A stretch of DNA of 35,860 bases from assembly GCA_902798615.1 (NCBI GenBank), contig CADBXL010000028.1, positions 1 through 35,860 on the forward strand, written 5' to 3'. Source of the stretch: an uncultured Bacteroidales bacterium (GTDB lineage Bacteria; Bacteroidota; Bacteroidia; Bacteroidales; Bacteroidaceae). The notes under the pieces are model-generated. The model made no database searches, was not told the origin of the DNA, and saw only the letters and a program-made list of their open reading frames with translations. Of the stretch, positions 1,487-32,827 are shown one piece after another. Both the position numbers and the translations under genes were made by a program. How positions within the stretch are numbered: the stretch's first letter is position 1; every line of letters starts with the position of its first letter.

Positions 1487-1572
1487 TCAGACCCTTTCCC
1501 CGCTTCCCCTGCTTAGGGGAAGAGCCGGAGCGCTCAAAAGTCTCCCTATGCAGGGAGATTTAGAGGGTCTGA
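1487..1572. repeat. Junction inverted repeat a
   Basis: The element begins 2 nt after the stop codon at 1482-1484. Outer arms TCAGACCCT (1487-1495) and AGGGTCTGA (1564-1572) are perfect complements. Two smaller hairpins lie inside (CTTCCCCTGCTTAGGGGAAG and a GTCTCCCT/AGGGAGAT stem). It is one of a series of GC-rich palindromic elements that fill gene junctions in this window. Confidence 0.75.
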
Positions 1573-1613
1573 AACTATCATAATATCTGATATTTTCTAT
1601 AGGGACAGTGGGT

Positions 1614-1648
1614 GATTAACAATTAACAATTAACAATTAACAATTAAC
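1614..1648. repeat. 7-bp tandem repeat (AATTAAC)x5
   Basis: Five consecutive copies of AATTAAC (first copy GATTAAC) lie between two palindromic elements upstream of the DUF5675 gene. Simple low-complexity tract; nothing suggests a function. Confidence 0.8.
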
Positions 1649-1651
1649 ATA

Positions 1652-1733
1652 CCTCTCACCCTCATGTAAGCGATAAAGGGTAACTTTTCCCTCGCCCTAC
1701 GGGAGAGGGTGTCACGAAGTGACGGGTGAGGGG
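1652..1733. repeat. Junction inverted repeat b (CCCTCTCCCC family)
   Basis: CCTCTCACCC at the left and GGGTGAGGGG at the right form the outer stem. The inner part contains TAAGCGATAAAGGGTAAC, which recurs almost exactly in the element at 31387-31521, and a GTCACGAAGTGACGGGTGAGG end that recurs at 7640-7662 and 31387-31410. It ends 10 nt before the DUF5675 start codon. Confidence 0.8.
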
Positions 1734-1743
1734 CCGTAGATTT

Positions 1744-2229
1744 ATGATAATAACATTGAAACGAATTTACTGCAAGGGCGCCTTTACTCTGGGTGCCCTT
1801 CAGATTCAGACTGAGAGTAATAGGGAGTTTCTCATGAACAGATACTTCTGTGATACGCTTGAGCCTCACGCTATTGACTGGCGCAGGGAGGAGAAAGTGG
1901 CGGGTAAGACCGCGATTCCGACGGGGCGGTACAGGGTGGTGATGAGTTACAGCAAGACTTATAAGCGCAGGATGCCGTTCCTACAGAACGTGCCGCATTT
2001 CACGGGGATTATGATTCATACAGGGAACTCGGTGGATGATACCCGAGGGTGCATACTGGTGGGTAAGGCGGTGCGGCCTCAGAATGAGGACACCGATTTT
2101 GAGAACCCTACAAGCGAGGCTACGGTGATAGGCAGGCTCACGGACTCACGCATCACGTTTAATCGGCTGTATGAGCTGATTCGGGAGGCGATGAAGAAAG
2201 GCGAGGAAGCCTTTCTAATTATAAAATGA
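1744..2229 (+). CDS. DUF5675 family protein
   Basis: The start is taken as the ATG at 1744 (MIITLKRIY, 161 aa) rather than the in-frame GTG at 1726, because the latter lies in the palindromic repeat. The family signatures are visible: CDTLEP at about 42-47, then AIPTGRYRV, then IMIHTGNSVDDTRGCILVG. The conserved His, GN and GC arrangement recalls L,D-transpeptidase-like cell-wall enzymes, but that is only a resemblance. DUF5675 genes often sit next to DUF3987/VirE-type genes in Bacteroidetes genomes and in phages, as here. No signal peptide is visible. The stop codon overlaps the left arm of a long inverted repeat. Confidence 0.85.
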   Translation: MIITLKRIYCKGAFTLGALQIQTESNREFLMNRYFCDTLEPHAIDWRREEKVAGKTAIPTGRYRVVMSYSKTYKRRMPFLQNVPHFTGIMIHTGNSVDDTRGCILVGKAVRPQNEDTDFENPTSEATVIGRLTDSRITFNRLYELIREAMKKGEEAFLIIK

Positions 2230-2433
2230 CTTGCTTTAGCTTGATGAGCTTCAGCGAATAATAATGAATACCCCCTTAATTCCCCTGCGTAGGGGGCTTT
2301 ATCGGGTTTAGAGGTTAGAGGTTAGGGGGGAGAAAGGCAAACGGCAAAAGACAAAAGACTTTAGACATTAGACTTTAGCCTTTAGACATTTAATAAGCGT
2401 TATTCGCTAAGGCTCATCAAGCTAAAGCAAGTC
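2228..2433. repeat. 206-bp element with 34-bp inverted-repeat ends
   Basis: The left arm (2228-2261, starting GACTTGCTTTAGCTTGATGA) and right arm (2400-2433, ending TCATCAAGCTAAAGCAAGTC) are complementary at 32 of 34 positions. The left arm overlaps the stop codon of the DUF5675 gene. The interior holds a small CCCCTGCGTAGGGG hairpin (within 2271-2300) and purine-rich low-complexity sequence (TTAGAGGTTAGAGG, AAAGACTTTAGACATTAG). The layout resembles a MITE but no target-site duplication is obvious. It makes up most of the ~325-bp gene-free stretch 2230-2554; the rest is CTGACCTGAAAACC low-complexity sequence and a terminator. Confidence 0.8.
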
Positions 2434-2490
2434 TGACCTGAAAACCTTCTGACCTGAAAACCTCCCAATCTGATAACCTTTATAACACAA

Positions 2491-2532
2491 CAAACAAAGG
2501 GTTGGCATCATGTGATGTCAACCCTTTGTTTG
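2491..2532 (-). terminator. Terminator of winged-helix gene
   Basis: CAAACAAAGGGTTGGCATCA and TGATGTCAACCCTTTGTTTG form a 20-bp stem with one G-U-type mismatch and a very short loop. It lies just downstream of the minus-strand gene that ends at 2555. Confidence 0.8.
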
Positions 2533-2554
2533 GTTAATTGTAATATGTTAATGC

Positions 2555-2851
2555 TTATGCGAGAGCGATGCCGCCTTCTACATTTGTAACCTTGCCCTCT
2601 TTGAAAAGCCAACCGAGACCGAGATATGCCTCTTCTGCGGTAATCTTTGCTGCCTTTGCAATCTCTGCTACAGAGAGAGCCTTACCTGCCTTAGCAAGAG
2701 CCTGATATACATCACCTGCCTTGAAACCTACGTTTTCGGCGTTAATTGTAATTTGTGTCACCTTTGGGGTAGCAGCCTTCTTTGTAGTCTTAGTAGCAAC
2801 TGCTTTTGTTGCTGCCTTAGGTGCTGCTTTTGTTGTCTTCTTTTCTGCCAT
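2555..2851 (-). CDS. Winged-helix protein with histone H1-like basic tail
   Basis: This is a 98-aa protein in two parts. Residues 1-31 are Lys/Ala/Thr-rich (KKTTKAAPKAATKAVATKTT), like the tails of histone H1 or bacterial Hc1/AlgP-type proteins. Residues 33-98 match the small winged helix-turn-helix (DUF2582-like) fold, with the GFKAGDVYQAL, LSVAEIAKAAKI and AYLGLGWLFKEGKV segments. It is expected to bind DNA, probably as a nucleoid-associated or regulatory protein; the exact role is unknown. It is monocistronic, with its own promoter-like box at 2916-2923 and a strong terminator. Confidence 0.85.
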   Translation of the reverse strand: MAEKKTTKAAPKAATKAVATKTTKKAATPKVTQITINAENVGFKAGDVYQALAKAGKALSVAEIAKAAKITAEEAYLGLGWLFKEGKVTNVEGGIALA

Positions 2852-2915
2852 AGTTGTGAGAATTTTGTAATATGACGTTAAGTTGTTAATAATAAGTGTC
2901 TAATTAATACGTCTG

Positions 2916-2923
2916 CAAAATTA
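2916..2923 (-). promoter_or_regulatory. -7 promoter box for winged-helix gene
   Basis: On the minus strand this reads TAATTTTG followed by C, matching the Bacteroidetes TAnnTTTG element. It lies 65 nt upstream of the start codon. No clear -33 TTTG box at the usual ~20-nt spacing. Confidence 0.55.
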
Positions 2924-3027
2924 CTCAAATTTTCCAATTGCTATGGGCAAATCTGCGCAAATTATTGTAATTCCGATATTTATTTGACATTAATCAATGC
3001 AAATGTGTACGCAAACAATCAAATCAT

Positions 3028-4518
3028 TTACAATTTGACTTTTTTCTTTGTTATTGCACTTTCATTGCTCATTCTGTCAAGGGCAGTTACTACGTATGTG
3101 TATCTTGTCCTACCGTTGCGATATGGCAGTTTGTAGTATGGTGATCGGGTTATTGCAACGATGTGGCTTGGGTCGTCGATGTCGATTATCTCGCCCTGTG
3201 CGAAGCAATATACTACATACTTATGTGCGGCTTCTCTCCAGTCGCGACTTGCAGGGCCTTCCCATACGAGCATATAGCCGTCTTCTGTCCAGATTGGTGC
3301 GAGGTTGCGTACTCTTTCCGGTGCCCTTCCGTCGATGAATGGCATTCGTGGCTGTAGAGCTGGGTAGCGCCAGTAGTTCTTTTCGAGCATGAGACCGTAG
3401 TTGCCTATGTTATCGACTGATGCCTTGGCATACCACAGCACGGTGCCGTGTACGTTGCGCATCTGGTTGTGGAGGCGGTACTTTGCTTCCATCTGATGCT
3501 TGCTTCCATTGAATGGGTCAGCAAATTGTACTGTGCGTTCAATGTCTTCTCCTATGAAGAGAGGACGGTTGTAGCAGTATTTGTTCCACCATTGTATGAG
3601 TGTCTGGTAATCTGCCGTAGGATGTCCTATCTGCCAATAGATCTGTGGTACGCAGTAGTCAATCCAGCCATTATTCACCCATAGCATCACATCGGCATAG
3701 AGTTCATCATAGTTTTGGAGTCCAGCTGTCTCTGAGCCGTTATATGGGTCGTTTCTCTTGTTACGGTAGATGCCGAATGGGGAGACACCGAATTTCACCC
3801 AGGGCTTGATGCTGTGTATGCAATCGCTGAGCTGCTTGATGAACTGGTTTACGTTGAAGCGACGCCAGTCACCTTTGTTTGGGATGCCGTTGTTGTATGC
3901 TGCGTAGTCCCTGTCGTCGGGGATGACCTGTCCCGGTACTGGGTATGGATAGAAATAGTCATCGATATGGAATCCATCGATGTCGTAGCGTCGTACGATG
4001 TCGGCTGCTACGGTGCAAATATAGTCGCGGTTCCATTGGTGTGCAGGATTGAGAATTAGCTGGTTATCGTACATGAATGCTGCGCCTGGACGTAGTACGG
4101 TAACGTGGTTGTTGGCAAGTCTTCCTGTGCTTTTTATTTTTGCACGGAATGGGTTTATCCATGCATGGAGTTCCATACCTCGCCTGTGGCACTCGGTTAT
4201 CATCCATTGAAGCGGGTCCCAGTATGGCTGTGGAGCGCGTCCCTGTACGCCTGTGAGGAAACGGCTCCACGGCTCGTATTGGCTGGCATACAGAGCGTCA
4301 CATTCTGCGCGTACTTGGAAGATAATGGCGTTGACACCTTGCCTCTGCAGCACGTTGAGTTGGTAGGTGAGATATTCTTGCATCTTGGCTGTACTCATAC
4401 CCTGAAACTGTCCGTTAACACATTGAATCCATGCACCACGGAATTCACGTTTATGCTGCGCGATTGCATTTATCGTCAGCATACAAAGGGTAAGGATTAG
4501 CAGCAGATTTCTTTTCAT
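3028..4518 (-). CDS. Glycosyl hydrolase-like family 10 (GHL10/DUF187) protein
   Basis: This is a 496-aa exported protein. Residues 1-21 form a signal peptide (basic MKRN, hydrophobic core, cleavage near AIAQ). The GHL10 (YngK/DUF187) TIM-barrel follows: REFRGAWIQCV at 24-33, VNAIIFQVRAECDALY at 62-77, LHAWINPFRA at 117-126 and DGFHIDDYFYPYP at 181-193, where the Asp pair is the expected active-site region. Residues from about 405 to the end look like a fibronectin-III-like domain (PERVRNLAPIWTEDGYMLVWEGP). Proteins of this family are thought to act on cell-wall or other glycans in the periplasm or at the surface; the substrate cannot be read from the sequence. The start lies 2 nt after the stop codon of the ABC ATPase gene, so the two are probably co-transcribed. 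Confidence 0.9.
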   Translation of the reverse strand: MKRNLLLILTLCMLTINAIAQHKREFRGAWIQCVNGQFQGMSTAKMQEYLTYQLNVLQRQGVNAIIFQVRAECDALYASQYEPWSRFLTGVQGRAPQPYWDPLQWMITECHRRGMELHAWINPFRAKIKSTGRLANNHVTVLRPGAAFMYDNQLILNPAHQWNRDYICTVAADIVRRYDIDGFHIDDYFYPYPVPGQVIPDDRDYAAYNNGIPNKGDWRRFNVNQFIKQLSDCIHSIKPWVKFGVSPFGIYRNKRNDPYNGSETAGLQNYDELYADVMLWVNNGWIDYCVPQIYWQIGHPTADYQTLIQWWNKYCYNRPLFIGEDIERTVQFADPFNGSKHQMEAKYRLHNQMRNVHGTVLWYAKASVDNIGNYGLMLEKNYWRYPALQPRMPFIDGRAPERVRNLAPIWTEDGYMLVWEGPASRDWREAAHKYVVYCFAQGEIIDIDDPSHIVAITRSPYYKLPYRNGRTRYTYVVTALDRMSNESAITKKKVKL

Positions 4519-4520
4519 TT

Positions 4521-6017
4521 TTACACGTTCTTTTTTAGATATATATGGTCGGTGATGCAGCGTGGAAGGTTCTCTTCATAGTGAGTCACCATGATGAGAG
4601 TCTTGTTTTGACGGGCACAGAAAGTGTCGATGATTTCTTTTACCTTCTCTCCGCGCTCGCAGTCAAGGCCGTGTAGTGGTTCGTCGAGGATAAGGAGCTC
4701 TGGATCCTTCACGAAAGCACGGGCGAGGAGTATCATACGCTGCTCTCCACTTGAAAGTTTGAGGAATGTCTTTTCCGCAAGATCCTCAATTCCAAATATT
4801 TTCATCCATGTGCGGCAAATCTCGTAGTCTTTCTCCGATGGCTTCACATAGAGACCTACGGAATCCTTGAGTCCGCTTGCCACGATACGTATTGCCGGCA
4901 TGTCGCGGTTGTATGCGCGGTGCATCTCTGGTGACACGTAGCCGATATGCTTCTTGATATCCCATATCGTCTCGCCAGAACCGCGCTTGTGGTCGAAGAG
5001 CACGATGTCGCAGGCATACGACTGCGGATTGTCGGCGCATACGAGGGATAGGAGCGTTGACTTTCCTGCACCATTCTGTCCCTTGAGAGCCCAGCGCTCA
5101 CCATTCTTAACTGTCCAGTTGAGATCCTTTAGAATGGTGCGTTCTCCATAGCGGATGCTAACGTTATTCATACGGACCACCTCATTGGTGTGGTATTCGT
5201 TATCGCTATATGGGAGGTTGAGGATGATATCCTTAAGTTCCTGTGAAAGAGGCTCTTTTTCTTTACCCTTTACACTTTCTACTTTATACTTTATACTAAT
5301 ATACTCCTCACGTGTCAGTTTTGGCTTTACCACCATATCCTTCACCTCAACGACGTGGGTGATGAAGTGTGGGATGTCCTCGTCCTTGGCAAGAACGAGA
5401 ATGATCTGAAGGGCGCGTTCCTTTGAAATCTGCTCAAGGAGTTCACGAAGCTGCTGGCGTGTCTCCTTGTCGAGACCGATGAACGGGTTATCCATTATCA
5501 GTACTCGTGGGTCGCCCATGAGGGTCTTGGCAAGCTGGAACTTGCGCAACTCGCCTGATGATAGGAGTATGATGTATTTGTCGAGGAGGTATCTGAGGTT
5601 AAAGATGTCGTACAGATGTTCCTTAATAGCACGGCGTTCCTCGGTGTCAGGACCTGTGATTTGATAAGTCTCTTCAAGAAGTTTTTCGACGGTAGGGGTG
5701 TTCTCGTCGATGTCGTGCTGATTCCATCGCTGCTGAAGATAGTAGTTTCGGTCGCTATCGCCTCCGTAGCTGTCGCGGAAGGTGATATACTTGATATTGT
5801 CGGAAGCCAGACGACTTGTCTTTGGCGAGAAATCGTATTCCACATCCTTCATAAGAAGCGGATGTGCGCTTGTGATAATGTCAACAAACATTGATTTGCC
5901 CGAGGCATTTCCGCCTACTATGGCAATATGTTCTCCGTCGAGGAGTGAGAAATCTACAGGCTGAGCCATGCGCCATTCCGGCATACGGGTTACGCCCTGA
6001 TTGATTGAGATGATCAT
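4521..6017 (-). CDS. Two-domain ABC ATPase (ModF-like)
   Basis: This soluble 498-aa protein has two nucleotide-binding domains and no membrane segment. NBD1 has Walker A GGNASGKS (35-42), signature LSSGE (152-156) and Walker B VLIMDNP (172-178), with Asn in place of the usual catalytic Glu. NBD2 has GQNGAGKST (313-321), LSSGEQ (421-426) and LLILDEP (441-447). This is the layout of ModF/PhrA-type proteins, named for E. coli ModF of the molybdate region; no molybdate genes are present here, so the role is open. The inter-domain linker (about 244-257, YKVESVKGKEKEPL) is encoded by an AAAGTATAAAGTA-type low-complexity tract. A palindromic element separates it from ruvC upstream, and the GHL10 gene follows after 2 nt. 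Confidence 0.85.
   Translation of the reverse strand: MIISINQGVTRMPEWRMAQPVDFSLLDGEHIAIVGGNASGKSMFVDIITSAHPLLMKDVEYDFSPKTSRLASDNIKYITFRDSYGGDSDRNYYLQQRWNQHDIDENTPTVEKLLEETYQITGPDTEERRAIKEHLYDIFNLRYLLDKYIILLSSGELRKFQLAKTLMGDPRVLIMDNPFIGLDKETRQQLRELLEQISKERALQIILVLAKDEDIPHFITHVVEVKDMVVKPKLTREEYISIKYKVESVKGKEKEPLSQELKDIILNLPYSDNEYHTNEVVRMNNVSIRYGERTILKDLNWTVKNGERWALKGQNGAGKSTLLSLVCADNPQSYACDIVLFDHKRGSGETIWDIKKHIGYVSPEMHRAYNRDMPAIRIVASGLKDSVGLYVKPSEKDYEICRTWMKIFGIEDLAEKTFLKLSSGEQRMILLARAFVKDPELLILDEPLHGLDCERGEKVKEIIDTFCARQNKTLIMVTHYEENLPRCITDHIYLKKNV
5256..5297. repeat. Low-complexity tract inside ABC ATPase gene
   Basis: On the minus strand this reads a run of AAAGTATAAAGTAGAAAGTG-like units. 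Very similar tracts fill intergenic junctions at 17557-17604 and 29725-29760. Here the tract is inside the coding frame and encodes the inter-domain linker. Confidence 0.65.
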
Positions 6018-6032
6018 CTATGTTAAATTTTC

Positions 6033-6179
6033 GGCCTCTCCCCCCGCCCTCCCCAATAGGGAGGGGGCCGGAGCGCGAAAGGCTGTTTGTTATTATTGAT
6101 TATGCCTCAAATTCTAATGTAAGCAATCCCCCATTGCCTTCCGGCTCCCTCCCTACGGGGGAGGGCGGGGGGAGAGGCC
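6033..6179. repeat. Junction inverted repeat d (CCCCCCGCCCTC family)
   Basis: Arms GGCCTCTCCCCCCGCCCTC (6033-6051) and its exact complement (6161-6179) form a perfect 19-bp inverted repeat around a ~110-nt interior. Each arm continues with a second small hairpin (CCCTCCCC-AATAGGGAGGGGG and CTCCCTCCCTACGGGGGAG). The element ends 6 nt from the ruvC stop codon and begins 15 nt from the ATPase start codon. Confidence 0.9.
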
Positions 6180-6185
6180 GCTCTT

Positions 6186-7499: not shown

Positions 7500-7662
7500 G
7501 CCCCTCGTCCGCCCTGCGGGCACCCTCTCCCCAAGGGGCGAGGGGGAAGTTAGCTTTTCTCGCTAAGAGGGATGTTTATTATTATTTATTTTTGAGCTTA
7601 TATTTCATACTTTTTCCCTCGCCCTTTGGGGAGAGGGTGGCACGTAGTGACGGGTGAGGGGC
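7500..7662. repeat. Junction inverted repeat e (CCCTCTCCCC family)
   Basis: Outer arms GCCCCTC (7500-7506) and GAGGGGC (7656-7662), plus inner arms CACCCTCTCCCC (7521-7532) and GGGGAGAGGGTG (7628-7639), are perfect complements. The element fills the whole interval between the rsmG stop codon, which it touches at 7663, and the MBL start codon, 8 nt away. Its GTGACGGGTGAGGGGC end matches the elements at 1652-1733 and 31387-31521. Confidence 0.9.
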
Positions 7663-8330: not shown

Positions 8331-9031
8331 CTCGAAATCAGAGTGTTATAGTCGATTCCATTGTAGTTTGGAATCACTATGTCGCAGTATTCTCTTATTG
8401 CTTCTTCTGTATTAGATGTTGAGAGTCCTACTACAACTGCGCCTGATGCACGTCCTGACTTTAATCCGTTGAAACTGTCCTCAAACACAAGGCATTCTTC
8501 TGGTTTTGCTCCGAATCGCTGTGCGCCCTTGATGTAGCAGTCTGGATGTGGCTTGCTGAACTCGAAATCCTCAGACATTAGGATTGCGTCCATCAATTCC
8601 TTGAGTTCCGGACGCTTCTTCAGAACGCTATCCATTTTTGCCTTGTTTGATGATGTCACCACAGCAGTTTTGAGACCATTGCGGCGACAATCCTTCACGA
8701 AATCCTCGAAGCCCTCAACGAATGGGTAATCCATATTCTTCTCAAATTCATTGAGTCCCTTGACAATATTGTCATATTCCTCGGGAACATGAGGAAGGAA
8801 ATCTTCAAAGATTCTTGTGAGCGTAGAGCCTTTTATCGTGTATTCCAATCCCGGCATATCTGGACGAAACTTCTTCATTACGCCACCCCAGAATACCGTA
8901 TATTGCGGTTCGGTGTCGAAAACCACTCCGTCGAGGTCGAAGAGGGCAGCCGCAACGGTCTCTCCCCCCGCCCTCCCCCGTAGGGAGGGAGCCGGATTGC
9001 TAAAATGTGATTTTGTTATGTTGTCGATCAT
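8312..9031 (-). CDS. HAD-family phosphatase (beta-phosphoglucomutase-like)
   Basis: This is a 239-aa HAD hydrolase with motif I FDLDGVVFDTE at about 31-41 (nucleophile Asp32, acid/base Asp34), motif II AVVTSSNK, motif III SKPHPDCY and motif IV VFEDSFNGLKS. A helical cap between motifs I and II places it in the subgroup with beta-phosphoglucomutase and small sugar phosphatases. Relatives usually start 4-8 residues before motif I. Here the first ~27 residues (including PAPSLRGRAGGETV) are encoded by the palindromic element at 8957-9093, which supplies the start codon. No other in-frame ATG, GTG or TTG lies between the repeat and motif I. The substrate is unknown. Confidence 0.88.
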   Translation of the reverse strand: MIDNITKSHFSNPAPSLRGRAGGETVAAALFDLDGVVFDTEPQYTVFWGGVMKKFRPDMPGLEYTIKGSTLTRIFEDFLPHVPEEYDNIVKGLNEFEKNMDYPFVEGFEDFVKDCRRNGLKTAVVTSSNKAKMDSVLKKRPELKELMDAILMSEDFEFSKPHPDCYIKGAQRFGAKPEECLVFEDSFNGLKSGRASGAVVVGLSTSNTEEAIREYCDIVIPNYNGIDYNTLISRLGLRG

Positions 9032-9093
9032 TAACTGTCTTTTTTTGTGGTTCTCCAGCTTCCTTCCTAGGTGGGAGGACGGGGGGAGAGACC
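8957..9093. repeat. Junction inverted repeat f, overlapping HAD gene start
   Basis: Arms GGTCTCTCCCCCCGCCCTCC (from 8957) and GGAGGACGGGGGGAGAGACC (to 9093) are complementary with one mismatch. It belongs to the same family as the element at 6033-6179. It ends 3 nt from the fbp stop codon and its other arm runs into the HAD reading frame. Confidence 0.9.
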
Positions 9094-14130: not shown

Positions 14131-14261
14131 GCCCCTAACCCCGTCCCTTCCCCCGCCCGGGGGAAGGGAGTAGTTACTTTTTATCGTTGTGAGGGGCCTT
14201 TAAGGTTTCATTACTAACCAACTCCCTTGCCCCGAGCGGGGAAAGGGTTGGGGAAAGGGGC
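14131..14261. repeat. Junction inverted repeat g
   Basis: GCCCCTAACCCCGTCCCTT at the left pairs imperfectly with AAGGGTTGGGGAAAGGGGC at the right. Each side also contains its own hairpin (TTCCCCCGCCCGGGGGAA; CCTTGCCCCGAGCGGGGAAAGG). It ends 3 nt from the lysA stop codon and begins 15 nt from the GT2 start. Confidence 0.8.
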
Positions 14262-14264
14262 TCT

Positions 14265-15422
14265 TTATAGCTCGTCGCTCATAATCCCCTTTGGCAACTT
14301 ACGGCAGTTATACTGTGAAGCCATTATCTCGCCGTAGGCACCGGCAGAACGGAGGGCAATGAAGTCACCACGATGACAAGCAGGGAGCTTCTCGTCCTTG
14401 CCGAAAACATCGCTTGACTCACAGATAGGACCTACTACATCGTAAGTTTCCTCAGCCTCGTTGCTTGATAGGTTCTGGATGGTGTGATGTGCATCGTAGA
14501 GGGCAGGGCGAATGAGGTCGCTCATACCTGCGTCAACGATTGCAAACTGCTTGATGTGGCATTTCTTTACATAGAGCACACGGGTGATGAGAGAACCCAT
14601 CTGGCCGACTACCGCACGTCCAAGCTCAAAGTGAAGGTGCTGATTGTCAGCAAGCTTAATGCCGTTAGCGTATGTCTCGAAATAAGCCTTGAAGTTTGGT
14701 ACAGGCGCACCGTCAGGATTGTCGTAGTCGATACCGAGGCCACCGCCCACGTTGATGTTCTCAACGCAGATGCCCTGCTTTGCAAGACGCTCAAGAAGCT
14801 CGTTTACACGATCGCAGAGAGCCTCGAAATCGCCCATTTCAAGAATCTGACTTCCGATGTGGAAGTGAAGTCCGATGAATTCGATGTTTGGCAACTCCTG
14901 TGCCTCACGAATAGCAAGCTCCATATCCTCCATTGCGATGCCGAACTTATTCTCTGCAAGACCAGTAGTGATATTTGCGTGGGTATGAGCACCTACGTTT
15001 GGATTTATGCGGAAGCATACACGTGCAACCTTTCCTTTCTGTCCTGCAAGTTCGTTGATTATCTGCAACTCCGGCTCTGACTCAACGTTGAAGCAGAAGA
15101 TACCTGCCTCAAGACCGAGGTTTATCTCCCAGTCCGCCTTACCTACACCTGCATATACGATTTTCTCAGGTGCAAAGCCTGCATCGAGAGCAGCCTGAAT
15201 CTCACCACCGCTTACGCAGTCAACGCCAAGACCTGCAGCCTGAATCCTTTTCAGTACCTTTGGGTTTGCATTGGCCTTGATGGCATAGTGAAGATGCCAG
15301 TTCTTGTGCTTAGCCATTTCGTCACAAATCGCGTCAAGCGACTGCTGCAGGAGCTCTGCGTCGTAGTAGTAGAACGGAGTCTCAATGTTTCCGAACTTCT
15401 CTATAGGAAAATTTCCTTTCAT
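14265..15422 (-). CDS. lysA: Diaminopimelate decarboxylase
   Basis: LysA is the last step of lysine synthesis, converting meso-diaminopimelate to lysine with pyridoxal phosphate. The 385-aa product has the PLP lysine in HYAIKAN (Lys49), the HFHIGSQI segment, the glycine-rich GGGLGIDY phosphate-binding loop, an ELGRAVV version of the EPGR motif, and the CESSD cysteine motif near the dimer interface (PICESSDVFGKD). Length and start (MKGNFPIEKFG) are normal. It lies directly downstream of lysC, so the two lysine-branch genes are probably co-transcribed. Palindromic elements fill the junctions on both sides. Confidence 0.96.
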   Translation of the reverse strand: MKGNFPIEKFGNIETPFYYYDAELLQQSLDAICDEMAKHKNWHLHYAIKANANPKVLKRIQAAGLGVDCVSGGEIQAALDAGFAPEKIVYAGVGKADWEINLGLEAGIFCFNVESEPELQIINELAGQKGKVARVCFRINPNVGAHTHANITTGLAENKFGIAMEDMELAIREAQELPNIEFIGLHFHIGSQILEMGDFEALCDRVNELLERLAKQGICVENINVGGGLGIDYDNPDGAPVPNFKAYFETYANGIKLADNQHLHFELGRAVVGQMGSLITRVLYVKKCHIKQFAIVDAGMSDLIRPALYDAHHTIQNLSSNEAEETYDVVGPICESSDVFGKDEKLPACHRGDFIALRSAGAYGEIMASQYNCRKLPKGIMSDEL

Positions 15423-15440: not shown

Positions 15441-15500
15441 ACTCACCCATAACGACCCCTTTTCCGCCTTTGGGCGGGAAAGAGGTTGTGGGGGAGGTTG
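15441..15500. repeat. Junction hairpin h
   Basis: CGACCCCTTTTCCGCC and GGCGGGAAAGAGGTTG, with flanking ACTCACCC/GGGGAGGTT, form one long imperfect hairpin with a TTT loop. It lies between the lysC stop codon (15 nt away) and the lysA start codon (19 nt away). Confidence 0.75.
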
Positions 15501-15514: not shown

Positions 15515-16834
15515 TTACTTATTGAATAGCTCTGCAGAAAGATTCTGCAATGCACGCTTCTTGTCAGCCTCACGAATGAGGTATGAAATGTTGTAGTTTG
15601 AACCACCGTAAGAAATCATGCGTACTGGGATGTCACGCATAGCGTCGGTTGCGAGAGACTCGAAACCGAGGTTGTTCCACTCAAGGTCGCCTACAACACA
15701 GATGATACACATGTCCTGATCAACGGTCACGGTACCGTACTTCTTCAGCTCATCAACAATCTGTGGGAGATGAGTATCCTTGTCGATGCTTACGCTTACG
15801 CCAACCTCAGATGTTGTAATCATGTCGATTGGAGTAGAGTAGTTTTCAAATATCTCGAATACCTTGCGGAGGAAACCCGTAGCGAGGAGCATACGTGAAG
15901 ACTTGATCTTGATAGCTGTGATGTTATCTTTTGCAGCAACTGCCTTAATCTTTCCGCGGTTGAGCTGATTGTTGATAACAGTACCGTCAGCATCAGGATC
16001 CATTGTGTTCTTGATGCGAACAGGAATTCCTGCATACTTTGCTGGCTGTACGCAAGTTGGGTGCAGAATCTTAGCACCGAAGTAAGCAAGCTCAGCAGCC
16101 TCCTCGAAATGAAGCTGATGAACAGCCTCTGTCTTCTCTACGACACGTGGGTCGTTGTTGTGCATACCGTCGATGTCAGTCCAGATCTGGATTTCGTCAG
16201 CAAGCATTGCAGCACCGATGAGAGAAGCAGTATAGTCAGAACCACCACGCTGAAGGTTGTCAATCTCACCGTAAGCGTTGCGGCATACGAAGCCTTGAGT
16301 GATGTATATCTGATAGCCCTTGTTTGCCTGGAGCACCTTTGCAAGATTCTCCTTGATGAATGGAGCATCAGGTTCAGCGTTCTTGTCTGTACGCATGAAG
16401 TCGAGTGCATCGAGAAGGATAGCCTTTATTCCCTGCTCCTTGAGATAGTTCACAACCATGTTTGTGCTCATAACCTCACCCTGAGCAACGATGATTTTTT
16501 CTTCGAAGCTGGTGAAGATATCCTTGGTGAATGAGCGTAGGTACTGGAACTCCTTTGCAAGGAACTCGCGTGTCTTGTTGCGCATTTCCTCTGTTGAGTA
16601 GAGTTCTTCAATGTGCTGGAGGTATTTCTTTTCCAAGGTGTTGATAACCTCGTTAGCACCGTCTGGGTTCTTCTTGTAGAGGTAATCGCTTATCTCCACG
16701 AGTGAGTTTGTTGTGCCTGACATTGCAGAGAGCACAACGAATGTTGGTTCTCCTGACTTTGTAATAAGTGAGGCAACGCCCTTCATACGCTCTGGTGAGC
16801 CTACTGAAGTGCCTCCGAATTTCATTACTTTCAT
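15515..16834 (-). CDS. lysC: Aspartate kinase
   Basis: LysC phosphorylates aspartate, the first step toward lysine, threonine, methionine and diaminopimelate. The 439-aa product is monofunctional. It begins MKVMKFGGTSVGSPERM with the conserved KFGGTS motif, and has the SDYTASLIG and WTDIDGMHNNDPR catalytic segments. The last ~140 residues carry two ACT domains (ITAIKIKSSRML... and ...SVSIDKDTHLP), the site of feedback inhibition by lysine in related enzymes. No homoserine dehydrogenase domain follows. It is preceded by ftsE 24 nt upstream and followed by lysA. Confidence 0.96.
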   Translation of the reverse strand: MKVMKFGGTSVGSPERMKGVASLITKSGEPTFVVLSAMSGTTNSLVEISDYLYKKNPDGANEVINTLEKKYLQHIEELYSTEEMRNKTREFLAKEFQYLRSFTKDIFTSFEEKIIVAQGEVMSTNMVVNYLKEQGIKAILLDALDFMRTDKNAEPDAPFIKENLAKVLQANKGYQIYITQGFVCRNAYGEIDNLQRGGSDYTASLIGAAMLADEIQIWTDIDGMHNNDPRVVEKTEAVHQLHFEEAAELAYFGAKILHPTCVQPAKYAGIPVRIKNTMDPDADGTVINNQLNRGKIKAVAAKDNITAIKIKSSRMLLATGFLRKVFEIFENYSTPIDMITTSEVGVSVSIDKDTHLPQIVDELKKYGTVTVDQDMCIICVVGDLEWNNLGFESLATDAMRDIPVRMISYGGSNYNISYLIREADKKRALQNLSAELFNK

Positions 16835-17554: not shown

Positions 17555-17556
17555 AT

Positions 17557-17604
17557 TTAACGCTTTACTCTTTACTCTTTCTACTTTACACCTTACTCTT
17601 TATT
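17557..17604. repeat. Low-complexity tract between hisE and ftsE
   Basis: Repeated GTAAAGAGTAAAG-like units on the minus strand fill the whole 57-nt hisE-ftsE junction. The same kind of tract occurs in the ABC ATPase gene at 5256-5297 and downstream of purC. Confidence 0.6.
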
Positions 17605-17611
17605 CAGAGTC

Positions 17612-23615: not shown

Positions 23616-23872
23616 CAAACGATTGTTGATTGTTCGTTTCCGATTATTCGTTGGAAAGAGATGACAATAGTAAGACGAAGAAAACTCGCTACTATCCTTA
23701 ACTAAGAAAAATGGCGGATTTTGAATGTTGAAGAATAAAGATCGATTTTATATTTATTGGATTTCATAGATCTGTAGGTTGCAAGGCTCAATGTCGTATG
23801 CACATAGTCTTACGCTCTGTAAGTCTTTGATAATTCCTTTTATATGTTCTATTAATAAAAACAATAGTAACG

Positions 23873-24970
23873 ATGAAAAAAACACTTGGCGTATTAACTG
23901 TCATGCTTTGTGCAACTTCTATGATATATGCACAGGCAGATGGAATTGCTACACATAAGTCATCAGACGTTGTGATGGCTTCGGATGGTGCAGCAATGGG
24001 AAAAGTAATTGCTTCTGGCTCTTGCGGAAAGAATGTCAATTACGAGTTGTATGACGATTATACTCTCCGCATCTTTGGAAGTGGACCGATGACCAATTTT
24101 GATCATATAATTGGTGCATGGGGGACTGATGCACCATGGGAGGACGAATCACAATGGATAAAGGCAATAAAATCCGTAGTTATTGAGGATGGTGTCACCC
24201 GAATAGGTGCTCATGCATTCTTGGGATGTACTTCACTTACAGAGGTGATTATTTCCAATAGTGTCACAAGTATTGGTCACGAAGCCTTCCGCGATTGTAA
24301 GGCACTTACGAAGATAGACATTCCTTGCAGCGTTACATGTATCGGAACTTTTGCTTTTGATGGATGTAGTTCTCTAGCGGAGATAAATCTCCCGAACGGT
24401 ATTGAGACAATTGAAAGTGGCGTATTCTATGGTTGTAGTTCACTTGAACATATAACTATTCCGAACAGTGTTACAAGTATAGAACATAATGCCTTCCATA
24501 ATTGTGCTTTACTTACAGAAATAATCATTCCGGATAGTGTTACATACATTGGAATGGATGCATTCAGTGGTTGTCACAATTTGGAATATGTGAAGATTGG
24601 CAAGGGTGTTACAACTATTGGTGAATGTGCTTTTTGGAATAATAATTCAGATAGGGAACTGGTGGTGGAGATTACTGCCGAAACTCGTATAACAGTCCTC
24701 GGTACTACTATAAATAGTTTTGGTGAACCAGAACACATCACTATTCGTGTGCCAGGAACAACCCTTGCTGATTATCGTAGTGCTGGAGATTGGTCGTATT
24801 ATATGAATCGTTTTGTCGGGTATGTCCCTACTATTACAGGCATCAGTTCTGTTCGCAATGGACAGCCAGTAATGAAATCTGATGCCGTTTATGACCTGCA
24901 AGGAAAGAAGGTGTCAGAGATGTGTCCCCATGGAATTTATATTGTCAATGGCAAAAAGATAATGAGGTAA
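23873..24970 (+). CDS. BspA-like leucine-rich repeat secreted protein 1
   Basis: This 365-aa exported protein has a signal peptide (MKKTLGVLTVMLCATSMIYAQ, cleavage near residue 21). The N-terminal ~80 residues resemble those of the next gene, and about six BspA-type LRR_5 repeats follow with the pattern IPNSVTSIGxxAFxxCxxL. After a proline/glycine-rich tail it ends AVYDLQGKKVSEMCPHGIYIVNGKKIMR, a C-terminal pattern seen in many Prevotella secreted proteins and like a type IX secretion sorting signal. BspA proteins bind host or bacterial surfaces in oral relatives; that is family knowledge and not shown here. It is followed 27 nt later by a paralog. Confidence 0.9.
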   Translation: MKKTLGVLTVMLCATSMIYAQADGIATHKSSDVVMASDGAAMGKVIASGSCGKNVNYELYDDYTLRIFGSGPMTNFDHIIGAWGTDAPWEDESQWIKAIKSVVIEDGVTRIGAHAFLGCTSLTEVIISNSVTSIGHEAFRDCKALTKIDIPCSVTCIGTFAFDGCSSLAEINLPNGIETIESGVFYGCSSLEHITIPNSVTSIEHNAFHNCALLTEIIIPDSVTYIGMDAFSGCHNLEYVKIGKGVTTIGECAFWNNNSDRELVVEITAETRITVLGTTINSFGEPEHITIRVPGTTLADYRSAGDWSYYMNRFVGYVPTITGISSVRNGQPVMKSDAVYDLQGKKVSEMCPHGIYIVNGKKIMR

Positions 24971-24997
24971 AAAAATATTACTATAAATGTAAATACA

Positions 24998-26161
24998 ATG
25001 AAGAAAATATTTGGAATATTATCACTCTTGCTTTGTGCAACTCCAATGATATATGCACAGGCAAATGGAGTTGCTAAACTTCAGTCATCAGACGTTGTGA
25101 CGGGATTGAATGGGGTAGCAAAGGGTAAAGTAATTGATTCTGGCTCTTGCGGATATAATGTCAATTACGAATTGTATGATGACTACACTCTCCGTATCTA
25201 TGGAAAGGGTGAGATGAGCAATTATTTATCATTAGGATATTTTGAAGGTGAAGTAAACCCCGCACTTACATCATCTCCATGGGGGAAGGAACAATGTGTA
25301 AAAAAAATAAAAGCAGTAGTTATAGAGAATGGTGTTACCCGTATTGGTAAAAATGCCTTCAGTCCTTGTACTTCACTTACCGCAGTAACAATTCCGAACA
25401 GTGTTACAAGCATTGGAGATGAAGCTTTCCGCGGTTGCTCTGCACTTACCGATATAACAATTCCAAATGGCGTTACAAGTATAGGGTGGGCTACTTTCTG
25501 TGGTTGTGAGGCACTTAAAAAGATAAATATTCCTAACAGTGTTACATTCATTGAATATATGGCTTTTGATGGATGTAGTTCACTTGCAGAGGTAACTATT
25601 TCGAACAATATTGAGACACTAACTAGCAGTGTCTTCTATGGTTGTAGTTCACTTGCACATATAAAAATTCCGAATAGTGTTACAAGCATAGAAGAATTTG
25701 CCTTTGAAAATTGTTCTTCACTTTCAGAGATAAATATCCCGAATAGCGTTACAAGCATTGGAGATAGGACATTCTATTATTGTGATAAACTGAAATACGT
25801 GAAAATCGGTGAAAATGTAACAGAAATAGGTGGAATGGCATTCCCTCAAGATGATGACGAGGATTTAGTAATAGAAATTACGTCTGAAACTCCTGCAAAT
25901 CTTGGTAGTGTAGAAGCATTCGGTTTTCTCTGTACTATCTATGTGCCAGAAAACGCGCTTGAAACTTATCTCAATGCGAAATATTGGAAAGATCATGCAT
26001 ATCAGATATTGCCAAAGAAATATACTACTGGTATAAATTCAATTGGTTCTGAACTATCAGAAAAGAAAACTGCCATTTACGATCTGCAAGGACATAGGGT
26101 AACTGAGATGCAGCCAAACGGCATATATATAGTTAATGGTAAGAAGATAGTAATGAAATAA
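24998..26161 (+). CDS. BspA-like leucine-rich repeat secreted protein 2
   Basis: The 387-aa paralog of the preceding gene has signal peptide MKKIFGILSLLLCATPMIYAQ, a shared QSSDVV, SGSCGYNVNYELYDDYTLRI start, and about seven LRR_5 repeats (IPNSVTSIGDEAFRGCSALTDI and similar). The last ~30 residues (AIYDLQGHRVTEMQPNGIYIV) match those of its neighbour. The two probably arose by tandem duplication; differences are concentrated in the repeat surface and in an insertion (ALTSSPWGKEQ). A strong hairpin terminator directly follows. Confidence 0.9.
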   Translation: MKKIFGILSLLLCATPMIYAQANGVAKLQSSDVVTGLNGVAKGKVIDSGSCGYNVNYELYDDYTLRIYGKGEMSNYLSLGYFEGEVNPALTSSPWGKEQCVKKIKAVVIENGVTRIGKNAFSPCTSLTAVTIPNSVTSIGDEAFRGCSALTDITIPNGVTSIGWATFCGCEALKKINIPNSVTFIEYMAFDGCSSLAEVTISNNIETLTSSVFYGCSSLAHIKIPNSVTSIEEFAFENCSSLSEINIPNSVTSIGDRTFYYCDKLKYVKIGENVTEIGGMAFPQDDDEDLVIEITSETPANLGSVEAFGFLCTIYVPENALETYLNAKYWKDHAYQILPKKYTTGINSIGSELSEKKTAIYDLQGHRVTEMQPNGIYIVNGKKIVMK

Positions 26162-27732: not shown

Positions 27733-27765
27733 CGAAAAAAATGATGAAATATGAAAACCTTTTTG

Positions 27766-27773
27766 TAATTTTG
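27766..27773 (+). promoter_or_regulatory. -7 promoter box for phoH
   Basis: TAATTTTG followed by C fits the Bacteroidetes -7 element; the phoH start codon (TTG at 27802) lies 29 nt downstream. It is divergent from the DUF5715 promoter. Confidence 0.6.
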
Positions 27774-27801
27774 CAGAAAAATTTTATAGTATTAAGAAAA
27801 A

Positions 27802-29683: not shown

Positions 29684-29684
29684 G

Positions 29685-29885
29685 GTTTAGAGGTTTTCAG
29701 GTTTTGAGGTCGGAATGCTCTTGAAAAGTATAAAGTAAAAAGGAAAAATTAAAAAGTATGATTACCTTGTATAGCGAAGGGTAGTCGAGAAAATACAAAC
29801 CATACTTTTTACTTCTAAATTTTTACTTTTTAATTTCTAAGCGATACTGACCTTCTAACCTTATAACCATCCAACCTTATAACCT
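29685..29885. repeat. Junction inverted-repeat element k (AT-rich)
   Basis: The element starts right after the purC stop codon. GGTTTAGAGGTTTTCAGG-like units at the left pair loosely with CCTTCTAACCTTATAACC-like units at the right; the inner AAAGTATAAAGTAAAAAGG tract pairs with CATACTTTTTACTTCTAAAT. It fills the 214-nt purC-menG junction. Confidence 0.6.
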
Positions 29886-29897
29886 ATTATAATTAAG

Positions 29898-30632
29898 GTG
29901 TACGAACAAGAAACGATAAAGCCCTACGATGGTGAGGGTGAAAAAGGAAAGTTGGTAGAGACTATGTTCGATAACATAGCCCCTACCTACGATACTTTAA
30001 ATCACCGCCTTTCGTGGGATATTGACAAATACTGGCGCAAGAAGGCCGTAAAGGCTCTTGTGCCATATAGTCCGAAGAAGATACTCGACATTGCCACAGG
30101 CACAGGCGACTTCGCCATCCTTCAGGCCCAGATGCTACATCCTGAGACTCTCATAGGTGCTGATATCTCAGAAGGAATGATGCAGGTGGGCAGAGAGAAA
30201 GTGGTACGTCTCGGACTTTCAGACATCATTACCTTTGCAAAGGAGGATTGTCTTAATCTGTCGTTTGACAATGATAGTTTTGATGCCGTAACGGCAGCTT
30301 TCGGAATACGTAACTTCCAGGACTTAGAATGCGGACTTCGTGAAATGTACCGTGTGCTTCGAGAGGGTGGAGTATTGAGCATTATAGAACTGACAACTCC
30401 AGTCTCTTTTCCGATGAAGCAGTTATTCGGTATATATAGCGGTACGGTGTTGCCGCTCTATGGCAGGCTCATTTCGCACGACTCAAACGCCTATTCATAT
30501 CTCAACAAGACAATTGCGGCATTCCCGCAGGGAGAGACGATGGTGGAGATACTCAGGAGAATAGGATTTGCTGAGGCTTCGTTCACACGCCTCACATTCG
30601 GCATTTGCACAATGTATTTTGCAAGAAAATAA
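29898..30632 (+). CDS. ubiE: Demethylmenaquinone methyltransferase (UbiE/MenG)
   Basis: This enzyme methylates demethylmenaquinone with SAM in the last step of menaquinone synthesis; Bacteroidetes use menaquinone, so that role is favoured over ubiquinone. The 244-aa product has [17 protein letters not shown] near the start, SAM motif [13 protein letters not shown], and [12 protein letters not shown], with [17 protein letters not shown] later. The start is GTG at 29898, supported by the alignment style of relatives. aroE follows after 6 nt. Confidence 0.95.
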
Positions 30633-30638
30633 AAAACG

Positions 30639-31379
30639 ATGAAGAAATACGGACTTATAGGCTATCCACTTGGCCATTCCTTCTCAATGGGATATTTCAA
30701 TGAGAAGTTTAGAAACGAGGGCGTAAATGCCACTTATGAGAATTTTGAGATTCCTCAGATCACTAATCTTCCAGAGGTGATACAGGCTAATCCGGAGCTC
30801 TCAGGTTTCAATGTCACCATTCCTTACAAGGAACAGGTGATGAGCTACCTCGACACCGTTTCTCCAGAGGCAACGGAGATAGGTGCCGTGAATGTGGTCA
30901 AGGTGGAGCGTGGAGCTGGTAAGGTGCTCCTTCACGGCTATAACTCCGATGTGGTTGGCTTTATGAACAGCATACAGCCACTTCTTCGTCCTGAGCATAA
31001 GAAAGCGTTGATTCTTGGAACTGGTGGCGCTTCAAAGGCTGTGGAATATGGTCTTCGCAAACTCGGACTTGAGACACTTAAAGTAAGTCGTAGGATTGTG
31101 GATGATACCATTCAGTATGAGCAGATTACACCAGAACTGTTAAAGGAATACAACGTGATAGTGAACTGTACTCCATGTGGCATGTCACCTCATTTCGATG
31201 AGTTCCCGCAGTTGCCATACGAGGCTATGGATAAGACATTCCTTCTCTACGACCTTATATATAATCCGGAGGAAACGCTCTTCCTGCGCAAGGGTAGGGA
31301 ACAGGGTGCAATCACAAAGAACGGACTTGAGATGCTCCTGCTTCAGGCTGAGGCTGGATGGAGTATTTGGAATGGGTAA
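30639..31379 (+). CDS. aroE: Shikimate dehydrogenase
   Basis: AroE reduces 3-dehydroshikimate to shikimate with NADPH, on the way to aromatic amino acids and menaquinone. The 246-aa product has the shikimate pocket GYPLGHSFS, catalytic Lys in FNVTIPYKEQV, NSDVVGF, and the nucleotide-binding LGTGGASKAV loop, then NCTPCGM. It is slightly shorter than E. coli AroE (272 aa). Downstream is a palindromic element reaching purM. Confidence 0.96.
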   Translation: MKKYGLIGYPLGHSFSMGYFNEKFRNEGVNATYENFEIPQITNLPEVIQANPELSGFNVTIPYKEQVMSYLDTVSPEATEIGAVNVVKVERGAGKVLLHGYNSDVVGFMNSIQPLLRPEHKKALILGTGGASKAVEYGLRKLGLETLKVSRRIVDDTIQYEQITPELLKEYNVIVNCTPCGMSPHFDEFPQLPYEAMDKTFLLYDLIYNPEETLFLRKGREQGAITKNGLEMLLLQAEAGWSIWNG

Positions 31380-31386
31380 AGGATGA

Positions 31387-31521
31387 CCCCTCACCCGTCA
31401 CCAAGTGACACCCTCTCCCCAAGGGGCGAGGGAAATGTTAGTAACAATCCCTTATAAGCGATAAAAGGTAACATCCCCCTCGCCCCTTTGGGAGAGGATG
31501 CCCGCAGGGCAGGTGAGGGGC
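31387..31521. repeat. Junction inverted repeat i (CCCTCTCCCC family, full length)
   Basis: CCCCTCACC (31387-31395) and GGTGAGGGG (31512-31520) are the outer arms; CACCCTCTCCCCAAGGGGCG and CTCGCCCCTTTGGGAGAGG are inner hairpin parts. The centre has TAAGCGATAAAAGGTAAC, also in the element at 1652-1733. It starts 7 nt after the aroE stop codon and ends 15 nt before the purM start. Confidence 0.88.
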
Positions 31522-31536
31522 TGGATTTTTTGAATT

Positions 31537-32700
31537 ATGAACAACAGATATATGATGCGAGGCGTGAGTGCAGCCAAGGAGGATGTGCACAACGCTATCA
31601 AGAACATTGACAAAGGTGTTTTCCCACAGGCTTTCTGCAAGATTATCCCTGATATTCTTGGCGGTGATCCTGAGTATTGTAACATTATGCACGCTGATGG
31701 TGCTGGTACAAAGTCATCATTGGCTTATATGTACTGGAAAGAGACTGGCGACCTCTCCGTTTGGAAGGGAATCGCTCAGGATGCCATCGTGATGAATACC
31801 GACGACCTGCTCTGTGTGGGTGCTGTGGATAACATCCTCGTTTCATCAACTATCGGACGTAACAAGATGCTTGTTCCGGGTGAGGTTATCTCTGCTATCA
31901 TCAATGGTACAGACGAACTCCTTGCCGAGATGCGCGAGATGGGTATCGGTATCTATCCAACAGGTGGTGAGACTGCTGATGTGGGCGACCTAACACGTAC
32001 TATCATCGTTGACTCTACCGTCACTTGCCGTATGAAGCGTTCTGATGTAATCGACAATGCCAACATCCGTCCTGGTGATGTAATCGTAGGTCTTTCTTCT
32101 ACAGGTCAGGCAACATACGAGAAGAGATATAATGGTGGTATGGGTTCTAACGGACTCACCTCTGCTCGTCATGATGTGTTCTCTAAGTATCTTGCAGAGA
32201 AGTATCCAGAGAGCTACGACAAGGCAGTTCCAGATGAACTTGTATATAGCGGTACAAAGAAACTCACAGATCCAACTGAGGTTGAGGGCGTTAATGCTGG
32301 TCAGATGGTTCTCTCTCCAACACGTACCTACGCTCCTGTAATCAAGCGTCTGCTCGATGAACTCCGTCCTGAGATTCATGGTATGGTACATTGTACAGGT
32401 GGTGCTCAGACAAAGGTTCTCCATTTCGTAAACGATAACTGCAAGGTTATCAAGGATAATATGTTCCCTGTTCCACCACTCTTCAAGATGATTCACGAAG
32501 AGAGCGGTACTGACTGGAAGGAAATGTATCAGGTCTTCAATATGGGACACCGTATGGAGATTTATGTCCGTCCAGAGGTAGCAGATAAGGTCATAGCAAT
32601 TTCCAAGAGCTTCAATATCGATGCACAGGTTGTTGGCCATATCGAGGAAGGAAAGAAATCATTAACAATCAAATCCGAATTCGGAGAGTTTAATTATTAA
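31537..32700 (+). CDS. purM: Phosphoribosylformylglycinamidine cyclo-ligase (AIR synthase)
   Basis: PurM closes the imidazole ring to form AIR in purine synthesis. The 387-aa product has the ATP/FGAM-binding signatures NIMHADGAGTKSSLAYMY, MNTDDLLCVGAV, PTGGETADVGD and VHCTGGAQTKVLHF. It is longer than E. coli PurM (345 aa), with the extra length in the middle, in the form usual in Bacteroidetes. Adjacent genes are aroE upstream and prfA downstream, both separated by repeat elements. Confidence 0.95.
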   Translation: MNNRYMMRGVSAAKEDVHNAIKNIDKGVFPQAFCKIIPDILGGDPEYCNIMHADGAGTKSSLAYMYWKETGDLSVWKGIAQDAIVMNTDDLLCVGAVDNILVSSTIGRNKMLVPGEVISAIINGTDELLAEMREMGIGIYPTGGETADVGDLTRTIIVDSTVTCRMKRSDVIDNANIRPGDVIVGLSSTGQATYEKRYNGGMGSNGLTSARHDVFSKYLAEKYPESYDKAVPDELVYSGTKKLTDPTEVEGVNAGQMVLSPTRTYAPVIKRLLDELRPEIHGMVHCTGGAQTKVLHFVNDNCKVIKDNMFPVPPLFKMIHEESGTDWKEMYQVFNMGHRMEIYVRPEVADKVIAISKSFNIDAQVVGHIEEGKKSLTIKSEFGEFNY

Positions 32701-32702
32701 AA

Positions 32703-32827
32703 GCCCACCCAGGCCCTCCCAAAGGGAGGGATGCGGTATAGTAAGATAAACTTTAATATAATCGTTTCAATTTTTTTGCCAAATTAATGTATAAAACATC
32801 CTTCCCTTTGGGAAGGCTTGGTTAGGC
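32703..32827. repeat. Junction inverted repeat j
   Basis: AGCCCACCCAGGCCCTCCC and GGGAAGGCTTGGTTAGGCT pair at 15 of 19 positions; each arm continues into a CCCTCCCAAAGGGAGGG or CCTTCCCTTTGGGAAGG hairpin. It begins 2 nt after the purM stop codon and ends 1-2 nt before the prfA start codon, so it occupies the whole junction. Confidence 0.85.

Follow-up and report, generated by a model that had tools for sequence, protein, structure and literature searches.

The YPAL sequences of Yersinia are palindromes that lie at gene 3' ends and are cotranscribed with the flanking genes. ERIC sequences are described in the same terms (PMC10969869, PMC1590033). GTAG/CGTC repetitive extragenic palindromes (REPs) are found mainly in unidirectional and convergent gaps, close to the 3' end of the upstream gene; they supply TAG stop codons, and intragenic REPs occur in DNA-repair and pseudouridine-synthase genes (PMC3733652). 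The Rickettsia palindromic elements (RPEs) are dispersed palindromic families that lie in frame in unrelated protein genes, again including pseudouridine synthase (PMC10969869, PMC3733652). For Prevotella, searches of an open-licence library listed one repeat, PINSR, and listed no work on palindromes that hug stop codons or lie in frame. PINSR is a lineage-specific 188-bp repeat of an oral clade, with 177-184 intergenic copies per genome, one of them downstream of tnaA; it reportedly lacks both terminal inverted repeats and protein-coding sequence, and two strains share about three-quarters of its sites (PMC4755523). We report here on palindromic elements, belonging to several families, that lie between co-directional genes in a stretch of 35,860 nucleotides (the 'window') from an uncultured Bacteroidales bacterium (contig CADBXL010000028.1 of assembly GCA_902798615.1). 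We consider it probable, at about three chances in four, that they are non-autonomous mobile palindromes of a REP/RPE-like kind, which persist where they leave reading frames intact.

The window corresponds to contig 28 in an assembly of 3,455,388 bp (G000, hereafter the 'own genome'), which is a draft, as are the genomes of its relatives. The nearest named relatives of its AIR-synthase-related protein belong to uncultured Prevotellaceae and Xylanibacter ruminicola genomes, many of them from rumen samples. Over the window region, identity was 92% with relative G001, in two main blocks, and about 85% with G002. Most own-genome figures were obtained on a 711-kb sample (21%), partly selected for one family, F1. 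Genes were called with a codon-usage script, not a published caller, which gives reliable stops and approximate starts.

A de novo search for inverted-repeat pairs (score of at least 15, loop of at least 25 nt) returned 158 pairs in the window plus 20 own-genome stretches that had been picked for their F1 copies; a single shuffle gave 1. The dispersed repeats comprise seven GC-rich seed families, F1 to F7, some of them related, and a class of AT-rich elements built from heptamers; the first-pass annotation, made from the letters of the window, had correctly counted at least four families. Assignments outside the seven seeds were made by eye. The seeds formed 104 clusters in the sample. F1 was found at 40 distinct places in the own genome (40 of 100 candidates scored), and its alignment (29 copies) displays a 10-bp outer stem, a 20-bp inner stem and two side hairpins, of which the 5' one is variable in form and the 3' one nearly constant. 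The centre motif GCGATAAARRGTAAC belongs to the F1/F7 centre, not to every family. F1 had a match in 2 of 100 genomes of the genus, its own included (E up to 1e-6), and in two of six named relatives' genomes (G001 and G002). For F2, a 19-mer was present in 177 own-genome copies, as against none for the reversed control; its distribution in the genus is patchy, with at least one copy in 55 of 299 genomes and at least 20 in seven. The same detector found 20 inverted repeats in the 821,027 bp of 80 related loci (each up to 11 kb, 14 of them with any such repeat), compared to 46 in the gaps of 279 kb of the own genome.

The F2 hairpin unit can stand alone or be paired with an inverted copy of itself (19-mer hits in the own-genome sample: 15 solitary in co-directional gaps, five in genes and one in another gap; 22 paired), as in REPs and the bacterial interspersed mosaic elements (BIMEs). 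Unlike in REPs and BIMEs, no GTAG or CGTC stands at the ends of F1 to F7, which by eye are GCCCC, GGCC, AGCC, GACCC and TAGGC; CGTC does occur within the left arm of F1, not at its end. PINSR is a single family, and is set apart by description from the several families with long inverted arms met here. A separate REP-like hairpin of about 35 nt (GAAGTCCGATGTTGATAACATCGGAGTATGTG) lies inside the arms of some F1 and F2 elements; it has 14 matches in the own-genome sample (L015, L021:15260-15291, L024:9859-9890, L026, L027, L029, L170 and others), is found in the G001 orthologue of 6033-6179, and is present or absent between sister species.

Orthologous junctions were then compared, palindromes being classed by gapped scoring with a threshold of 15, as ungapped classing misses diverged palindromes; of 120 maxima from two shuffles, one reached 14, the top value being 14.8. 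Among 52 junction records, 17 had a palindrome in both the own genome and G001. Eleven of these pairs were at least 70% identical and six were below; of the six, four were different families (F5 facing F4, or F2 facing an AT-rich palindrome, for example) and two shared their ends with a different interior. With G002, seven junctions had a palindrome in both genomes, one alike and six of different families by eye, and with G077 one was alike and two were different. In the outgroup, G005, no palindrome was present at any of the six comparable junctions where the own genome has one, and the gaps there were 17-39 nt long. At locus L021, which carries the trp genes, the gap before the anthranilate-synthase gene is occupied by F1 in the own genome, by F5 in G002 and by an AT-rich repeat of heptamer type in G001; in G005 it is only 22 nt long. 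At another junction, F2 is present in the own genome and G002, while G001 keeps GGCCAA before the ATG with a heptamer palindrome inside, the trace of a replacement. The F1 element between aroE and the AIR-synthase-related gene was found at one of the 45 printable junctions (L031, in G001) among 80 such loci, the others having gaps above 420 nt (18) or lacking one or both genes (17). G002 has a heptamer array there (L032), and the remaining gaps were 4-84 nt long, with one exception of 144 nt.

The first-pass annotation had offered insertion elements as one possibility, and had named gradual evolution without presence/absence polymorphism as one outcome that would speak against its reading. Dispersed families, presence or absence between sister species and the occurrence of different families at one junction support insertion elements. 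The insertions turn over fast.

A second group of observations concerns reading frames. Of the 104 GC-rich clusters, eleven are intragenic and translated in frame with their host gene; among these, L026:9601 is placed at a gene start. Proteins in which elements are read in frame include a hybrid regulator, a pseudouridine synthase with two F1 copies, a radical-SAM protein, a U32 peptidase, a UvrD-like helicase, DnaG, RadC, MetH and MutS. Both pseudouridine-synthase inserts were absent from 28 of 28 aligned homologues (one further homologue of the 29, a partial 452-aa sequence, was excluded), and the first substitutes for a conserved stretch rather than being added to one. In the protein search, a threshold of E 1e-60 retained the own genome only, of 25, and a threshold of 1e-15 retained 54 of 60 genomes, own included; among the matches listed, those of the other genomes mostly divide into segments of about 17-270, 330-445 and 496-611, with the interruptions at the inserts. 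The AlphaFold2 model (29 sequences) had a mean predicted local distance difference test (pLDDT) of 79.3, with residues 1-13, 275-325 and 446-492 below 50; the inserts fall in this low range, while the remainder of the fold is confident. Such low values in a model indicate compatibility of these sites with an insert, not disorder, as alignment-empty columns also depress confidence.

Slots in MetH and MutS, too, differ in their inserts between sister species. At MetH residues 116-119, the own protein has no insert, that of G001 a heptamer array and that of G002 an F2 unit. Just before domain V of MutS (Pfam 635-824), the own genome and G001 carry an F2 unit and G077 an F8-type element; look-alikes of F8, recognized by eye, are coding in this MutS and in L021 8990-10918. 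Repeats are the source of peptides such as SGSLPTGEGGGRG in MutS or RadC, a point of importance for annotation. In the hybrid regulator (L028:14244-16697), which has HisKA, receiver and AraC-type HTH domains and no HATPase_c match at E 1e-8, the F1 copy lies between HisKA and receiver.

Elements also provide the limits of genes. The upstream open reading frame enters the element in nine of the 80 co-directional clusters. The indole-3-glycerol-phosphate synthase gene of L021 (12672-13493) stops on a TGA in the side hairpin of F1, and its G001 orthologue on a TAA in the loop of F4. F2 contributes the start codon, and with it an N-terminus read in frame (NPAPSLRGRAGGE or IPAPSLRGRAGGE), to the HAD gene of the window, to its G001 orthologue and to the G077 orthologue of 3028-4518. 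In the window case (8957-9093), the F2 centre contains the ATG (9031) and the right arm is read as the N-terminus of a protein whose HAD domain begins at residue 30.

In-frame insertion within otherwise conserved proteins is a likeness to RPEs. The differences are a Bacteroidota host with a larger genome, the location of most copies between operon genes, and full elements that are inverted pairs around a large centre. Rickettsia has been the best-known source of coding palindromes. In the present rumen lineage, whose genome measures 3.5 Mb, the process is under way, and relatives at suitable distances allow one to see how repeats rewrite the spacing of operons, the stop and start codons of genes and the loops of proteins. 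In Bacteroidota, an inverted-repeat element with a minisatellite inside, the BrickBuilt miniature inverted-repeat transposable element, has reportedly been found in Porphyromonas gingivalis. It is reported to be strictly intergenic (PMC10969869), unlike the present elements with their in-gene copies. From ERIC and YPAL, compared by description only, the elements differ in that several families coexist and some copies are coding. The elements behave like REPs and like RPEs/ERICs; we claim no membership.

In the window, the ten elements singled out by the first-pass annotation all contain an inverted repeat or hairpin, and all begin 0-14 nt past a stop codon (Table 1). The architecture it had ascribed to them (arm, inner hairpin, centre, inner hairpin, arm) does not apply to 15441-15500, a single 60-nt hairpin, and fits the AT-rich elements loosely. 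Its statement that they usually end within 20 nt of the next start fits 32703-32827, which stands directly before an ATG, and does not fit 8957-9093, which overlaps the start of the next gene.

Position was next considered beyond the window. Among the 104 GC-rich clusters, 80 were in co-directional gaps, 11 in genes, six in convergent gaps, five at stretch edges and two in divergent gaps. In 14 stretches selected independently of their repeat content (279,403 bp), inverted repeats occupied 33 of 111 co-directional, five of 18 convergent and two of 21 divergent gaps; for the GC-rich ones alone, the counts were 14, one and none (P = 0.0011 relative to non-element intergenic length). F2 pairs of other lineages, in stretches picked around F2 matches, were in co-directional gaps in eight of eight cases (five in G117, two in G216, one in G077). 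Of 60 matches of at least 110 nt in co-directional gaps, 35 lay 0-15 nt past the stop and 25 within 20 nt of the called start. For the 40 elements with both distances between -10 and 150 nt (the other 20 being left out), the median distance from the stop was 6.5 nt and that from the called start 27 nt. Elements were nearer the stop than the start in 35 of 38 untied cases, and in 22 of 22 for F1, a comparison in which start distances are inflated because start calls are approximate. Proximity to the upstream 3' end, the provision of some stop codons and the presence of some copies in reading frames recall REPs; the present elements differ in their greater length, in being few in convergent gaps (6 of 104) and in having no Y1 transposase linkage in the loci checked.

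Orientation was counted except for copies whose strand scores lay within 8 bits (2 of 36 for F1); one F1 element was counted as two half-hits, one per direction. F1 runs along transcription in 31 cases against three (P = 8e-7), F3 in eight against one and F5 in three against none, while F2, nearly symmetrical, gave five against two. In L021, genes change strand and F1 changes with them, which argues against a pure replication-strand effect. Solitary F2 units count against a general orientation rule: in co-directional gaps of the own genome, seven were sense and eight antisense. Within genes, they were sense in five of five own cases, and in 12 against three antisense over all scanned stretches.

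A mobile origin probably accounts for most of this, as follows. The unit is a GC-rich hairpin arm, which occurs singly or as two inverted copies flanking a centre. It has expanded recently in a few lineages of a Prevotella/Xylanibacter-type genus of the rumen, presumably by transposition in trans. It would land in transcribed DNA and, under a purifying filter, persist chiefly where reading frames survive, with no required function of its own. Three kinds of place would be tolerated: short operon gaps, where the element touches the stop codon, the start codon or both; the end of a gene, which the element may overlap while itself giving the stop or start; and protein sites accepting an insert in frame. 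Other families could replace older elements at the same slots. Because operon gaps are only 17-39 nt long at the six comparable outgroup junctions, a surviving insertion must approach a stop or a start, and a need for unstructured nucleotides ahead of the start would shift insertions to the stop side.

Several results weigh against this account. No transposase with matching ends was present in the 711 kb of own genome, where a search for an autonomous element with the same ends returned only pairs of elements flanking ordinary genes. No target-site duplication was evident by eye in the printed flanks, for which there was no base-exact empty site at high identity. Y1_Tnp had two matches in the own genome, and eight loci surrounding Y1_Tnp-family matches (about 3 kb each, from four genomes) contained no F1-F7 match. 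Finally, a pure survival filter explains neither the orientation of F1 (31:3) nor the scarcity of elements in divergent gaps (2 of 104; 0 of 15); together, these suggest that either RNA matters or insertion is coupled to transcription. One of the two own Y1-transposase-type matches (L143, G000:C47:8450-8782) has an internal TGA, and no link to the elements was found.

The elements could be selected as intercistronic RNA structures, blocking 3' exonucleases or serving RNase cleavage or the insulation of cistrons, with a sequence that is free as long as the palindrome stays. Co-directional placement (80 of 104), the orientations of F1 and F3, stop proximity and different palindromes at one junction are all expected from it, and REPs and ERICs near gene 3' ends have been proposed or shown to affect mRNA (PMC3733652, PMC10969869). 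Folds are stable too: folded as sense RNA, the ten window elements had z-scores of -2.7 to -4.4 (60 first-order shuffles each). No Rfam family matched the window above its gathering score. However, of the two strands the sense RNA was the stabler for only 18 of the 63 GC-rich elements of the own genome and 16 of the 54 from relatives, and for about half of the AT-rich ones (25 of 46 and 33 of 59). Both-sided change affected only two of 37 pairs of the F1 consensus, although in recent copies covariation may not have had time to arise. Among solitary F2 units in gaps neither strand is preferred, the same sequences occur within coding regions, the outgroup lacks elements at the same junctions, and such a repeat is missing from 78 of 111 co-directional gaps and from 66 of 80 related loci. 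We regard this explanation as unlikely on the whole. F1 orientation and stop proximity fit the first-pass suggestion that RNA structures separate or stabilise cistrons; the fold and covariation tests lend it no support. Exchange of families at one slot makes it possible to test whether the elements are passengers or shape operon expression.

Somewhat more doubtful is a transcription-coupled process that writes hairpins of many unrelated sequences into transcribed DNA, at slots that are untranslated or tolerant, and exchanges the palindromes occupying a given slot. Asymmetric families would then run mostly parallel to transcription, and a slot would be an operon gap or a protein loop. If this is true, what stays constant would be the slot and its palindromic character rather than any sequence, unlike in transposition of a defined element with defined ends. 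We rate it slightly lower given that solitary F2 units in gaps are about equally sense and antisense.

Insertion by an enzyme that recognizes gene 3' ends or stop codons would explain the contact of 0-14 nt at ten of ten window sites and the behaviour of F1 (22 of 22 nearer the stop). In-frame intragenic copies and copies overlapping starts do not conform to it, distances differ by family, and no common motif was apparent by eye in the printed flanks; we consider it improbable. The targeting of 3' ends, as initially proposed, is too narrow a description, since 11 of 104 GC-rich members lie in reading frames and some elements contain starts or supply stops.

Equally improbable for the elements as a whole is local evolution by slippage or template switching, without mobility. 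For the GC-rich families it is refuted by dispersal in high copy number with a common sequence and by presence or absence between sister species. It may be right for the AT-rich class, in which arms consist of units of about 7 nt that are also found as plain tandem arrays in the same gaps. Tandem arrays of 7-nt period (AGTAAAG, TTGAACA, AAAAGTC and others) were seen at 17555-17611 of the window and in the aroE/AIR-synthase gaps of L032, L046, L053 and L056, and heptamer-like stretches are read in frame within proteins of several genomes (L179 and L185, for example). TAACTGA heptamer arrays, described from Beggiatoaceae, Cyanobacteria and five Bacteroidetes, lie close to the starts of genes (PMC4679880); the present arrays share the 7-nt period, and differ in having variable units, which come after stop codons and also make up the arms of AT-rich palindromes.

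Intrinsic terminators, suggested by stable GC-rich hairpins past stop codons, are highly improbable, as a run of five T followed within 12 nt in 8 of 60 elements compared to 5 of 60 on the other side (control), and elements stand between consecutive genes of conserved operons such as trp in L021. Integron attC sites also sit between the stop and start of co-directional genes; they were rejected, with no attC model applied, because the genes are ordinary conserved ones (Pfam), not cassettes.

Table 1. Palindromic elements of the window, with the distance past the stop codon (nt) and the state of orthologous junctions
Element	Positions	Strand	Context	Past stop	Orthologous junctions
F8 palindromic element, AGACCCT..AGGGTCT, two inner hairpins	1487..1572	+	follows stop of 3-1484	2	
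Partial F1 (centre GCGATAAAGGGTAAC and right arm)	1651..1733	+	upstream of DUF5675 gene		
F2 element	6033..6179	-	between ruvC and ABC-ATPase gene	6	G001: same F2 element plus ~35-nt REP-like hairpin in left arm; G002 and G077: 34-nt gaps
F1 element	7500..7662	-	between GidB-domain and metallo-beta-lactamase-fold genes	0	G077: different AT-rich palindrome; G002: AT-rich gap of 105 nt
F2 element	8957..9093	-	between FBPase-like and HAD genes	3	
F7 element, F1-like centre (ACGATAAAAAGTAAC)	14131..14261	-	downstream of decarboxylase gene 14265-15422	3	
Short single hairpin	15441..15500	-	between amino-acid-kinase/ACT gene (15515-16834) and 14265-15422	14	G077: short F1-like element (by eye)
AT-rich nested inverted repeat, ~7-nt units	29685..29885	+	between SAICAR synthase and ubiE-type genes	1	G001: outer part retained, interior differs; G002: gap of 3 nt
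F1 element	31387..31521	+	between shikimate-dehydrogenase-domain (aroE) and AIR-synthase-related genes	7	
F3 element	32703..32827	+	directly before ATG 32829 (RF-1/PCRF-domain gene)	2	
AT-rich inverted repeat, (AATGAAAA)-type arms	33931..34044	+		1	G001: GC-rich element

Other repeats were met in the course of the analysis. An inverted repeat composed of GTAACA-type units, its centre 60-120 nt long, was found at 35653-35806 of the window, at L027:19803 and L028:17229, and in L147, where it is 3' of a Y1-transposase match; its positions are convergent or at an edge. A further inverted-repeat family (TAACGTGAGTTCGA...), unlike the GC-rich families and often in divergent or long gaps, was seen in L011, L014, L024, L030 and L166. 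At 23870-26161 of the window, two adjacent proteins, which we take to resemble leucine-rich-repeat surface proteins, are made with 69-nt (23-aa) repeats, and their starts are 82% alike over 229 nt.

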